The translations under genes were made by a program, and so were the position numbers. From positions 1 to 38,392 of the forward strand of contig JAHWKB010000005.1 of assembly GCA_019348115.1 (NCBI GenBank): a stretch of 38,392 nt of DNA. Reading direction: 5' to 3'. Shown one piece after another: positions 4,666 through 22,794 of the stretch (position 1 is its first letter; every line of letters starts with the position of its first letter). A model generated the notes under the pieces. The model was not told the DNA's origin, made no database searches, and saw only the letters and a program-made list of their open reading frames with translations. The DNA is from Actinomycetota bacterium (GTDB taxonomy: Bacteria; Actinomycetota; Nitriliruptoria; Nitriliruptorales; Nitriliruptoraceae).

Positions 4666-5954
4666 GGCTCGCTCCGATCGTCGTGCCCGTCCGGCTCGTT
4701 GGTGGACGGGCGGCGCGTGACGAGCACCTGGCTCACCCGCCTGCCCTGCACCCGCTCGGTGAGGAGCGAGACCCCGTCGATGTCGATCTGCTCGCCCGTC
4801 TCCGGCACGCGGCCGAGCGTGCCCACGACGAGGCCGCCCACGGTGTCCCAGCCCTCGTCGGGGAGGTCGGCGTCCAGGAGCTCGTTGAGCTCGTCGACGG
4901 GCAGCCGCGCATCGATGCGCAGGCGCTCGTCGTCGACGACCTCGACGAGTGGTGCCTCGTGGTCGTGCTCGTCGACGATCTCGCCCACGATCTCCTCGAG
5001 GATGTCCTCGATCGTGACGAGGCCCGTCACGGCGCCGTACTCGTCGACGACGATCGCCTGGTGGACGGTCGACGCCTGCAGCTCGCGCAGCAGCAGGTCG
5101 ATGCGCTGGGTCTCGGGCACGAACGTCGGTGGCCGGACGAGGTCGTCCCAGGCCTCGACGCCCGGGCGGTACGACAACCGCTTCAGGACGTCCTTCGCGA
5201 ACACCACACCGACGATCTCGTCACGGGTGTCGCGGTGCACGGGGATGCGGGAGTGGCCGTGCTCGATGATCGTGTTGACGAGCTCGCGGAGCGACGCGGA
5301 CTCCTCGACGGTCACCATGTCCGGCCGCGGGACCATGATCTCGCGGACGAGGGTGTCCCCGAGCTCGAAGATCGAGTGGATCATCGCCCGCTCGTCGTCC
5401 TCGATCTCGTCGTCCTCCTCCTCGGCGGCGACGAGGTCGCGCACCTCGTCGTCGGCGGCGAACGGGCCGGAGACGTCGGTGCGCACGCGCACGAGGCCAC
5501 GGCCGGTCGCGACGAACGCGCCGGCGAGCGGGGCGAGCAGCCGCGTCACCGCTCGGAACGACCGGGCGAGGCGGAGGCCGGTCGCCTCGAGGTGGCGCAG
5601 CGTCAGGGTCCGCGGGGCCACCTCGACCACGACGAGCGAGAGGACGACGAGCGCCGCGAGGACGGCGACCACGCCGGCGACGCCACCGAGGTGGCGGAGC
5701 CCGGTCCAGGTGGCGATCGCCGCCGACGCGATGCGGGACGTGACGGTGAGGAGCAGGACCACGTTCAGCGTCGTGGCGCGGTGCTCGAGGATCCAGAGCA
5801 GCGACTCGGAGCCCTTCGCCTCCTCCTCGCGGAGGCGCAGCGCCCGGACCAACGGCAGGCGCACGACGATGGTCTCGATCGCGCTCAGGTACGCGGTGCC
5901 GGCGAGGAGGACCACGAGGCCCCCCACCGCCCAGAGCAAGCTGCCGTCGCTCAC
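4662..5954 (-). CDS. CNNM/CBS-domain membrane protein (CorC/hemolysin C family)
   Basis: GTG start VSDGSLLWAVGGLVVLLAGTAYLSAIETIVV; REIMVPRPDMVTVEESASLRELV; CBS pair; C-terminal transporter-associated domain. Confidence 0.88.
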   Translation of the reverse strand: MSDGSLLWAVGGLVVLLAGTAYLSAIETIVVRLPLVRALRLREEEAKGSESLLWILEHRATTLNVVLLLTVTSRIASAAIATWTGLRHLGGVAGVVAVLAALVVLSLVVVEVAPRTLTLRHLEATGLRLARSFRAVTRLLAPLAGAFVATGRGLVRVRTDVSGPFAADDEVRDLVAAEEEDDEIEDDERAMIHSIFELGDTLVREIMVPRPDMVTVEESASLRELVNTIIEHGHSRIPVHRDTRDEIVGVVFAKDVLKRLSYRPGVEAWDDLVRPPTFVPETQRIDLLLRELQASTVHQAIVVDEYGAVTGLVTIEDILEEIVGEIVDEHDHEAPLVEVVDDERLRIDARLPVDELNELLDADLPDEGWDTVGGLVVGTLGRVPETGEQIDIDGVSLLTERVQGRRVSQVLVTRRPSTNEPDGHDDRSEP

Positions 5955-6406
5955 GAGCCGCTCCCGCTGGAGGTCGCGTACGACGCGAGGAGCTCGTCGG
6001 TCAGCCCGAACATCTCGCGCTCGTCCTCCGGCTCGGCGTGGTCCATGCCGAGGAGGTGCAGGATCCCGTGCACGGTGAGGAGGCGGAGCTCCTCGTGCTC
6101 CGTGCGGCCGAGCCCGGCGGCCTGCTCGGCCGCGACGGCCGGGCAGAGGACGACGTCGCCGAGGATGGCCGGACCCGCCGGCGCGGACTCGCCCGGCTCG
6201 TCGATCGGGAAGGCCAGCACATCGGTCGGCCCCTCCTTGCCCATGTGCTGCGCGTTGAGCGCGGACATGGTGTCGCGGTCGACGAGGAGGACCGACACCT
6301 CCATGTCCTGTGGGACCGAGCGCTCGCGGACGACGTGCTGCACGAGCGCGACGAGGTCCTCCGCGTCGACCTCGCGGTCCTGCTCGTCGGAGAGGAAGAC
6401 GGGCAC
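5951..6406 (-). CDS. ybeY: Endoribonuclease YbeY / rRNA maturation factor
   Basis: LLTVHGILHLLGMDHAEPEDEREMF, the H3XH5XH metal motif; position next to phoH. Confidence 0.93.
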   Translation of the reverse strand: MPVFLSDEQDREVDAEDLVALVQHVVRERSVPQDMEVSVLLVDRDTMSALNAQHMGKEGPTDVLAFPIDEPGESAPAGPAILGDVVLCPAVAAEQAAGLGRTEHEELRLLTVHGILHLLGMDHAEPEDEREMFGLTDELLASYATSSGSGS

Positions 6407-8613
6407 TAGCGGTCGTCCCGGTCACTGCCCTCGGCGGGCTCGTTGGCGAGCGCGTGGGCCTCGTACGCCTCCACGATCCGCTGGACGATGTGGTGGCGGA
6501 CCACGTCGCCGGCGGACAGGTGCGCGAACGCGACGCCCTCGATGTCCAGCAGGATGTCCCGGACGACGCGCAGGCCCGACTTCCTCCCGCTCGGGAGGTC
6601 GACCTGGCTGATGTCGCCGGTCACGACCGCCTTGGAGTTGAACCCGATGCGCGTCAGGAACATCTTCATCTGTTCCGCGGTCGTGTTCTGCGCCTCGTCC
6701 AGCACGATGAACGCGTCGTTCAGCGTGTTGTGCGTGACGAGGAAGTCCTCGGTCACGTACAGCGAGTCCGCGGCAGCCACCTGGATGCAGACCGTCTCCG
6801 CCTCGCCGGCCGGCTCGATCGCGTCGATGAACCGCATCGGCCGACCGCCGCCGTGGGCGCGGTAGGTGGCGCGCTTCCGCTCCAACCGGAACGGCTCCAG
6901 CTGCTGCGGCAGGCGGATGTCGAGCACGAACGCGTCCGAGCGGTACGGCACCGACCGACCGTGGGCGCGGCCGGGCGTCCGTCCCTCCGCGTGGCGCGTC
7001 CGCCAGTAGGCGACCCCGCCGAGCGATCGGACGAGGAAGACGACGTCGTCGCGGAGCTGCGGCGAGACCGTGGTGTACTGGATCCGGCAGGTCCGGCCGC
7101 GCTGGGAGACCGGGCCGCCGTCGGTGTCGAGCAGTCCCTGCAGGACCCCGAGCCGGACCTCGACGGTGTTCTGGAGGTAGGCGGTCGGGACGAACTTGGT
7201 CCTGGAGCTCGTCCCCCAGAGCTCGAGCTCACGGAGGGCACGGGTCACCGGGTTCTCCACGATGATGCCGCCGCGCGGACGGCCGGCCCGGTCGAGGACG
7301 TAGTCCGGACCGCCCTTCCAGCGGACCTCGACGTCGTCGAACGCCTCTTCCAGCGCGTCGGCGAGCTCGGTGTCCTCGGTCGAGAACGTCGGGGTGGTGC
7401 TGCCGGTGATGCAGCCGTTCCCGAGCACGAGGCCGAGCGCGTACGGGTCCATCGGCACGTCCTGCGCCGGGAACGCGACCGGAGCGACCACCGGCAGCTC
7501 GTACCGCCGCGCGTGGGCGGCGCGGAGGTTCCCGATCATCTCCCGGGTCTCGAGGGTGCGACCAGCCTTGCTGCGCCGGCGGTCCGCGCGGGTCCAGACC
7601 GTCCAGAGGTGCTCCCCGCACGCGAGCGTCGAGGCGCCGTCCTGGGCGGTCACGCGGTAGACGTCCTTGCGTCCCTGAGGGAAGACGCCCAGGACGTGGG
7701 TCGGCGTCCCGTCGGATCCGAAGACGAGGTCCCCGACACGGAGCTCACCGATGGGGCGGAAGCCGTCCGGGGTGAGGACCGGCGTGCCCACCGGCTGTGC
7801 CCGGCCACGCATGTATGCGAGGGGGGCGACCTCGATGGTGCCGCGGTCGACGTGGGCGGCGAGCTCCTCGGCCTCCATCATGTCCATCAACGCGTCCCAC
7901 AGCGGCTTCAGGTACGGGTCGATCTTCTCGGTGAGCGTCCCGGGGAGGAAGCCGAGCCGCTCCCCCGCCTCGACCGCGGGGCGGGTGAGGATCAGGCGGT
8001 TGACCTGCTTCGCGCGGAGGGCCTGCACGGCCGCGCCCATCGCGAGGTAGGTCTTGCCGGTGCCGGCGGGACCGATGCCGAACGTGACGGTGTTCGTGCG
8101 GATCGCGTCCAGGTAGCGCTTCTGCCCCAGCGTCTTCGGCCGGATCGTGCGACCACGGTGGGTGAGGAGCGCCTCGGACAGGACCTGCGACGGTCGCTCG
8201 CCGGCGTCGTCCTTCAGCATGCGCACGGTCTGGCGGACGAGGCCGGCGTCGAGCGACTGGCCGCGCTCGAGGATGATCACGAGCTCCTCGAAGAGCTTCG
8301 CCGCCCGCTCGACCTCGGCGGCCTCACCGGAGATCGTGATCTCGTTGCCGCGGACGTGGATCTCGGCGTCGAACGCCTTCTCGATCTGCTTCAGGAGCTC
8401 GTCGCGCGCACCGAGCAGCGCCACCATCGAGTGGTCCCCCGGGACGAGCACCTTCACGGAACTCAGTGGCGCGTCGACGCTCCTGCCCTGCCGGTCGACC
8501 GCGGACGGCACGTCGGGATCGTCGTGCGGTGCGGATGAGGTGCTGGACAAGGGGGTGTTCGTGCTCCTGACGGGGGCCACGCGGGGTCGCGCAGTGTACC
8601 CCGCGGCACCCAC
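6406..8613 (-). CDS. phoH: PhoH family ATPase precursor interrupted by an intein (735 aa; about 377 aa after splicing)
   Basis: Walker A GPAGTGKTYLAMG; Walker B FIVLDEAQNTT; extein join PLAYMRGR|TLNDAFIVLDEAQN restored by removing residues 272-629. Exact start codon uncertain. Confidence 0.93.
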   Translation of the reverse strand: MGAAGYTARPRVAPVRSTNTPLSSTSSAPHDDPDVPSAVDRQGRSVDAPLSSVKVLVPGDHSMVALLGARDELLKQIEKAFDAEIHVRGNEITISGEAAEVERAAKLFEELVIILERGQSLDAGLVRQTVRMLKDDAGERPSQVLSEALLTHRGRTIRPKTLGQKRYLDAIRTNTVTFGIGPAGTGKTYLAMGAAVQALRAKQVNRLILTRPAVEAGERLGFLPGTLTEKIDPYLKPLWDALMDMMEAEELAAHVDRGTIEVAPLAYMRGRAQPVGTPVLTPDGFRPIGELRVGDLVFGSDGTPTHVLGVFPQGRKDVYRVTAQDGASTLACGEHLWTVWTRADRRRSKAGRTLETREMIGNLRAAHARRYELPVVAPVAFPAQDVPMDPYALGLVLGNGCITGSTTPTFSTEDTELADALEEAFDDVEVRWKGGPDYVLDRAGRPRGGIIVENPVTRALRELELWGTSSRTKFVPTAYLQNTVEVRLGVLQGLLDTDGGPVSQRGRTCRIQYTTVSPQLRDDVVFLVRSLGGVAYWRTRHAEGRTPGRAHGRSVPYRSDAFVLDIRLPQQLEPFRLERKRATYRAHGGGRPMRFIDAIEPAGEAETVCIQVAAADSLYVTEDFLVTHNTLNDAFIVLDEAQNTTAEQMKMFLTRIGFNSKAVVTGDISQVDLPSGRKSGLRVVRDILLDIEGVAFAHLSAGDVVRHHIVQRIVEAYEAHALANEPAEGSDRDDR
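6727..7800 (-). mobile_element. Class 3-type intein in PhoH (358 aa) with LAGLIDADG homing endonuclease domain
   Basis: Begins AQPVGTPVLTPDGFRPIGELRVGDLVFG (Ala1); block B ACGEHLW; LAGLIDADG-like YALGLVLGNG and LQGLLDTDGG; block F VCIQV; ends FLVTHN with +1 Thr. Confidence 0.92.
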
Positions 8614-8629: not shown

Positions 8630-9004
8630 TCAGCCGGGCGGCCACAGCATCGGACGGCCGCCGAGCACGTGCAGGTGCAGGTGGAAGACCGACTGGCCGG
8701 CCTTCTCGCCCGTGTTCGCCACCACCCGGTAGTGCCCGAGGTCGAGGCTCTCGGCGACGTCCGCCACCCCGCGCAGCAGCGCCGGACCGAGGTCGGGGGC
8801 GTTGCGCGCCGCGTCGGACCAGTCGCGGACGTGCCGGCGCGGGACGACGAGCACGTGCGTCGGCGCCTTCGGCTGGATGTCCTTGAAGGCGACGACGTCG
8901 TCGTCCTCGTGCACGATCGCGGCGTCGATCTCGCCGGCGACGATGCGACAGAACAGGCAGTCCCCGCGCTCGTCCGGGGTCTGCTGGTCGTCGTGCTCGC
9001 TCAC
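8630..9004 (-). CDS. HIT family nucleotide-binding protein
   Basis: GTG start VSEHDDQQTPDERGDCLFCRIVAGEI...GQSVFHLHLHVLGGRPM; histidine triad HLHLH. Confidence 0.92.
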   Translation of the reverse strand: MSEHDDQQTPDERGDCLFCRIVAGEIDAAIVHEDDDVVAFKDIQPKAPTHVLVVPRRHVRDWSDAARNAPDLGPALLRGVADVAESLDLGHYRVVANTGEKAGQSVFHLHLHVLGGRPMLWPPG

Positions 9005-9053
9005 GCTCGGCTCCTGGCGTCGGGACGCCGGGAGCCTAGGAGAGGAACCGCGG

Positions 9054-20539: not shown

Positions 20540-22435
<1,896 letters not shown>

Positions 22436-22794
22436 GGAGTCCGGGCCGAGAGGTGGGTCCGAGGGTACCGGCGTCACCTCGGCGCCCCGCCCCAGCGGGC
22501 GGGGTCCGTCCAGCGGGAGGAAGCCGTCGCGGAGCACATCCGTCCAGTGGCGCCACGGGTTCACCGATCTCGGCAGCGCGACCCTGACGCCCGTGCACGC
22601 CCTCACGCGGGGTCGGCGCCCCTGGAACGGGGCACCGGCAGGCGGTTGCCCGTCGCGCCGGGCCGCTGGTACCCTCCGCGTCCGGCTCGCCACGCGTGCC
22701 CGGTCTGCGCTCTCCTCCTCACTCCAGGCGCGCTCGGCCGTGCGGTGACGTCCGCTCCCTCCTCAACGTGCTCCAGACCCGAACGGGATCGACC

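Follow-up and report, generated by a model that had tools for sequence, protein, structure and literature searches.

The window analysed here, a 38,392-nucleotide contig stretch from a Nitriliruptoraceae genome (Actinomycetota), contains the gene order era, cdd, corC, ybeY, phoH, a HIT gene, a BldD-like regulator, an rsmE-type methyltransferase, dnaJ and hrcA, with a long in-frame insert in phoH (Table 1). The insert-bearing gene is the only PhoH-domain gene found in this 92%-complete genome, which is assembled in 422 contigs. The PF02562 core is present on both sides of the insert and ybeY adjoins the gene, as expected of a YbeZ-type PhoH, and the neighbourhood era-cdd-corC-ybeY-phoH identifies it as the housekeeping copy. 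Further along the same strand, lepA (20540-22693, minus strand) lies upstream of the hrcA-dnaJ genes.

Table 1 Features of the phoH locus, in window positions
Feature	Position	Strand	Details
ybeY, downstream neighbour of phoH/ybeZ	5951..6406	-	PF02130 E 4.5e-36
phoH/ybeZ ORF with in-frame intein	6406..8613	-	735 aa + stop; PF02562 E 3.4e-87
phoH/ybeZ true start		-	may be ~45 codons downstream of 8613
N-extein of PhoH, KH-like domain	7801..8613	-	Walker A 8050-8073
Class 3 intein (supported assignment), PhoH R/T site	6727..7800	-	358 aa; ORF residues 272-629
N-terminal Hint part, blocks A and B	7489..7800	-	
Ala1	7798-7800	-	codon GCA
Cys61 (B:7)	7618-7620	-	
His64 (B:10)	7609-7611	-	
Trp66 (B:12)	7603-7605	-	
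LAGLIDADG endonuclease domain	6838..7488	-	intein residues 105-321, 217 aa
Asn128 in place of first catalytic Asp	7417-7419	-	codon AAC
Asp227, second catalytic Asp, kept	7120-7122	-	
C-terminal Hint part, blocks F and G	6727..6837	-	
Cys338 (F:4)	6787-6789	-	
Thr356 (G:5)	6733-6735	-	
His357	6730-6732	-	
Asn358	6727-6729	-	
C-extein of PhoH	6409..6726	-	Thr+1 first, 6724-6726; Walker B FIVLDE 6694-6711
HIT-family protein gene, upstream of phoH	8630..9040	-	PF01230 E 8.8e-26

A first-pass annotation of this DNA had proposed that PhoH is split by a 358-residue intein between Walker A and Walker B, and its account of the insert holds: the boundaries stand, excision rejoins YMRGR/TLND (the slash marks the insertion point), a same-genus PhoH has exactly this empty site, and the motifs AQPVGTP, GEHLW, VCIQV and THN/T are all found in the translation. 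Its spacing of six residues between the junction and Walker B needs correction, since the strand (F635-IVLDE) begins after five residues and its Asp lies nine away. In a Pfam search, the PhoH model matched in two pieces, one on each side of the insert. In the HMM comparison that the first-pass annotation had suggested, LAGLIDADG_3 matched within the insert (E 1.2e-8) and the Hint models matched more weakly, at scores under their curated cut-offs. The endonuclease domain and its altered active site, described below, are additions to that annotation. PhoH itself was found in 60 of the 61 genomes searched, and the insert in seven relatives besides the window copy. Both sides of a seamless empty MRGRTLND site were seen in 21 fetched relatives, including same-genus genome G001 (locus L010), whose intein-free PhoH is 89% identical to the window exteins; in a 22nd (L011) the empty junction is visible and the contig ends just past it. 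These empty-site relatives give the picture expected of an element inserted precisely into coding sequence and, together with the Pfam matches, place the pattern far beyond chance. With the insertion at this position, PhoH would be inactive before splicing.

Class 3 inteins are marked by Trp at B:12, Cys at F:4 and Thr at G:5, without Cys at position 1 (PMC7891396, PMC7664689, PMC6195587). The window copy lacks a nucleophile at position 1 (Ala1) and carries Trp66, two residues after His64, Cys338, and Thr356 followed by His357-Asn358. We compiled 104 PhoH loci yielding 96 distinct inteins, every one at the R/T site. Across all 96, H64, L65, W66, C338, I339, T356, H357 and N358 are invariant, and the +1 residue is Thr at 104 of 104 loci. 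The first-pass annotation had rightly named Trp66 and Cys338 as members of the class 3 triplet; its third member is Thr356, with Thr+1 being a separate requirement. Aligned by hhalign to an actinobacterial DnaB P-loop class 3 intein, the PhoH intein profile matched over its full length (probability 99.8, E 9e-28), placing A1, H64, W66, C338 and T356-H357-N358 in register, with Cys338 opposite the Cys of RCIQV in the DnaB-type intein. The AlphaFold model of the precursor (mean pLDDT 81.8) matches PhoH 3b85 over the exteins (TM 0.82 by target), and its best Foldseek match is PI-SceI (E 2e-19), followed by further matches to the class 3 DnaB inteins 6rix, 6riy and 6bs8 (E ~2e-5 for 6riy and 6rix); the insert is thus predicted to adopt the Hint fold of known inteins. 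Register, invariance and fold matches support the assignment of the window intein to class 3, and neither of the contrary outcomes named beforehand at the sequence level, a failure to match Hint profiles or an alignment indicating a Cys1 or Ser1 mechanism, was observed.

Anatomy, conservation, empty sites, fold similarity and patchy distribution are all direct observations, and on this basis we are confident that a class 3 intein occupies the MRGR/TLND site of PhoH, one that would splice via Cys338 and was spread by its LAGLIDADG domain, with homing now probably lost or reduced. After translation, Cys338 in block F would attack the peptide bond between Arg(-1) and Ala1; the N-extein would then move to Thr+1, and cyclisation of Asn358 would release joined PhoH.

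One possible addition to class 3 splicing, rather than an alternative to it, concerns block B position 7. A reversible disulfide between Cys61 (B:7) and Cys338 (F:4) could pause PhoH maturation under oxidative stress, an idea that we regard as unlikely. It draws on the frequency of Cys at B:7, which occupies this position in 79 of the 96 PhoH inteins, whereas Asp predominates among the class 3 relatives examined in other hosts (DnaB, RecG and phage proteins), class 3 inteins generally having no conserved residue there (PMC7891396). The geometry is also favourable, since in AceL NrdHF the B:7 and F:4 side chains lie 2.9 and 3.0 Å from the N-scissile bond and hence at most ~7 Å apart (PMC7891396), and a reversible Cys48-Cys118 disulfide in Mycobacterium smegmatis DnaBi1 provides a precedent (PMC6195587). 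However, the other 17 PhoH inteins have Ser (10/96) or Thr (7/96) at B:7, including five of the eight host-family copies, and this range of Cys, Ser and Thr fits a plain hydrogen-bonding role at the N-junction, like that of the TxxH motif. It is doubtful that the conserved active-site Cys pair acts as a redox switch in PhoH-site class 3 inteins, tying PhoH/YbeZ maturation to oxidative state across Actinomycetota.

Splicing in the style of class 1 or class 2, in which a position-1 nucleophile acts, or Thr+1 attacks the N-junction directly without a block F branch, is very improbable. Class 2 inteins also lack a position-1 nucleophile, and some relatives could conceivably splice through Ser1, since residue 1 is Ser in 9 of the 96 PhoH inteins and Ala in 87. 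However, the window copy begins with Ala, and Trp66, Cys338 and Thr356, the class 3 mark (PMC7891396), are present in 96/96, the Ser1 members included. These nine Ser1 inteins with the full triplet (L041, L075, L085, L090, L124, L125, L133, L137 and L140) may use a dual or transitional mechanism.

While the splicing residues are complete, the endonuclease of the class 3 intein is altered. Asn128 aligns with Asp218 of PI-SceI and Asp227 with its Asp326, so that the window copy retains a catalytic Asp in the second LAGLIDADG motif and has lost that of the first. LAGLIDADG enzymes generally show abolished or impaired cleavage on losing either Asp. Position 128 is Asp in 92 of the 96 PhoH inteins. 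The window copy has probably lost homing or is left with nicking activity, and would still splice. The D128N change comes down to one base, GAC having become AAC, in a contig assembled from a metagenome, and could be an error of sequencing or assembly. General decay of the window endonuclease finds no support beyond this residue, its endonuclease-versus-Hint conservation ranking 17 of 96, and since the rest of the domain is not unusually diverged, D128N would be either recent or an error. Of the 8 host-family copies, 4 have no intact Asp pair, compared with 4 of the 88 others (Fisher p 0.001); that second set was selected on similarity and on conserved patterns, which biases it towards intact copies. 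Two host-family inteins, L008 (303 aa) and L009 (296 aa), are missing ~55-62 aa of the endonuclease and could be described as intermediates towards mini-inteins. It is extremely unlikely that the window intein is a decaying, non-splicing element that leaves the cell without PhoH: the lost endonuclease Asp and the precedent of a class 3 intein within a pseudogene (PMC3196547) are outweighed by complete splicing residues, two intact in-frame exteins, the absence of a second PhoH gene among those found in the genome and the 89% extein identity to the intein-free relative.

In a sample of 397 genomes from across the phylum, 30 have an intein match at E 1e-8 or better, some of these matches being class 3 inteins that sit in host genes other than phoH. 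A search of genome contigs returned 293 candidate stretches encoding an intein relative, the best 80 of which were taken further; the relatives include copies from Calidithermus chliarophilus, an isolate of the Deinococcota whose contig measures 3 Mb, and from a Myxococcales MAG. A Frankiales copy shares 74% identity with the window copy in the intein and 69% in the exteins; for the copy at the same PhoH site in C. chliarophilus (L114) the values are 66.5% and 55%, suggesting that this intein likely arose by cross-phylum transfer. Within the host family the relationship is reversed, with intein identity below extein identity, and the extein tree requires at least five changes of intein state. 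The patchy distribution and the excess of intein over extein identity across classes and phyla indicate that the element is mobile, and point to a history of horizontal movement with losses, in which the tree does not tell gains from losses. The LAGLIDADG domain would be what spread the intein among empty phoH alleles. A single clade of host-family inteins was considered as well; the tree sets the window copy apart, yet an AU test (p 0.22) leaves one clade unrejected, and we therefore claim no separate transfer into the host genus. Phages were also considered as vectors of PhoH inteins and set aside: two phage "PhoH" records (L141:2219-3838, Eggerthella phage LE2-3; L142:1517-4339, Caudovirales GX15bay) contain class 3 inteins that interrupt other proteins, and neither shows PhoH-like exteins; their names look like misannotation driven by the similarity of these inteins to those of bacterial PhoH.

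These results extend class 3 PhoH inteins from the published mycobacterial examples to Nitriliruptoria, other actinobacterial classes and a single isolate of the Deinococcota, the insertion site being the same throughout. Empty, full and decaying phoH alleles form a clear set for study of the homing cycle, and the conserved B:7 Cys offers a direct handle on redox sensitivity; should both fail in experiments, the intein would be an ordinary mobile element, tidily annotated.

Among known systems, PI-SceI (the VMA1 intein), the best fold match, shares with the window copy a Hint domain and a two-motif LAGLIDADG endonuclease, and differs in being class 1 (Cys1), in its yeast host and in having both catalytic Asp residues. 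The class 3 DnaB P-loop inteins (MsmDnaBi1 6bs8 and MchDnaB1 6rix) resemble it in Hint fold, class 3 triplet, Ala1, THN end and ATPase host. However, MsmDnaBi1 lacks an endonuclease, interrupts Walker A, is followed by Ser+1 and has Asp as its B:7 residue (PMC6195587), whereas the window copy combines an endonuclease domain with Thr+1, a Cys at B:7 and a site just before Walker B. In many class 3 relatives the insertion follows G-K and precedes T or S, which the RGR/T of PhoH resembles; two of these (L047 and L054) lie in Walker A of a RecG-like helicase (GSGK/...THN/T). A further comparison is with mycobacterial PhoH inteins, which share both host protein and class with the window copy, the class 3 motif having been published for those of M. 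fortuitum and M. xenopi (PMC6195587) and a further intein for M. smegmatis PhoH (PMC7360933). The PhoH inteins of Mycolicibacterium wolinskyi and M. brisbanense, copies other than those named in these papers, occupy the identical R/T site, and that of M. wolinskyi shares 66% identity with the window copy. What sets the window copy apart is its Nitriliruptoria-type host and the Asn128 of its endonuclease, and it is a further member of the known class 3 PhoH inteins, with an endonuclease that is probably disabled.
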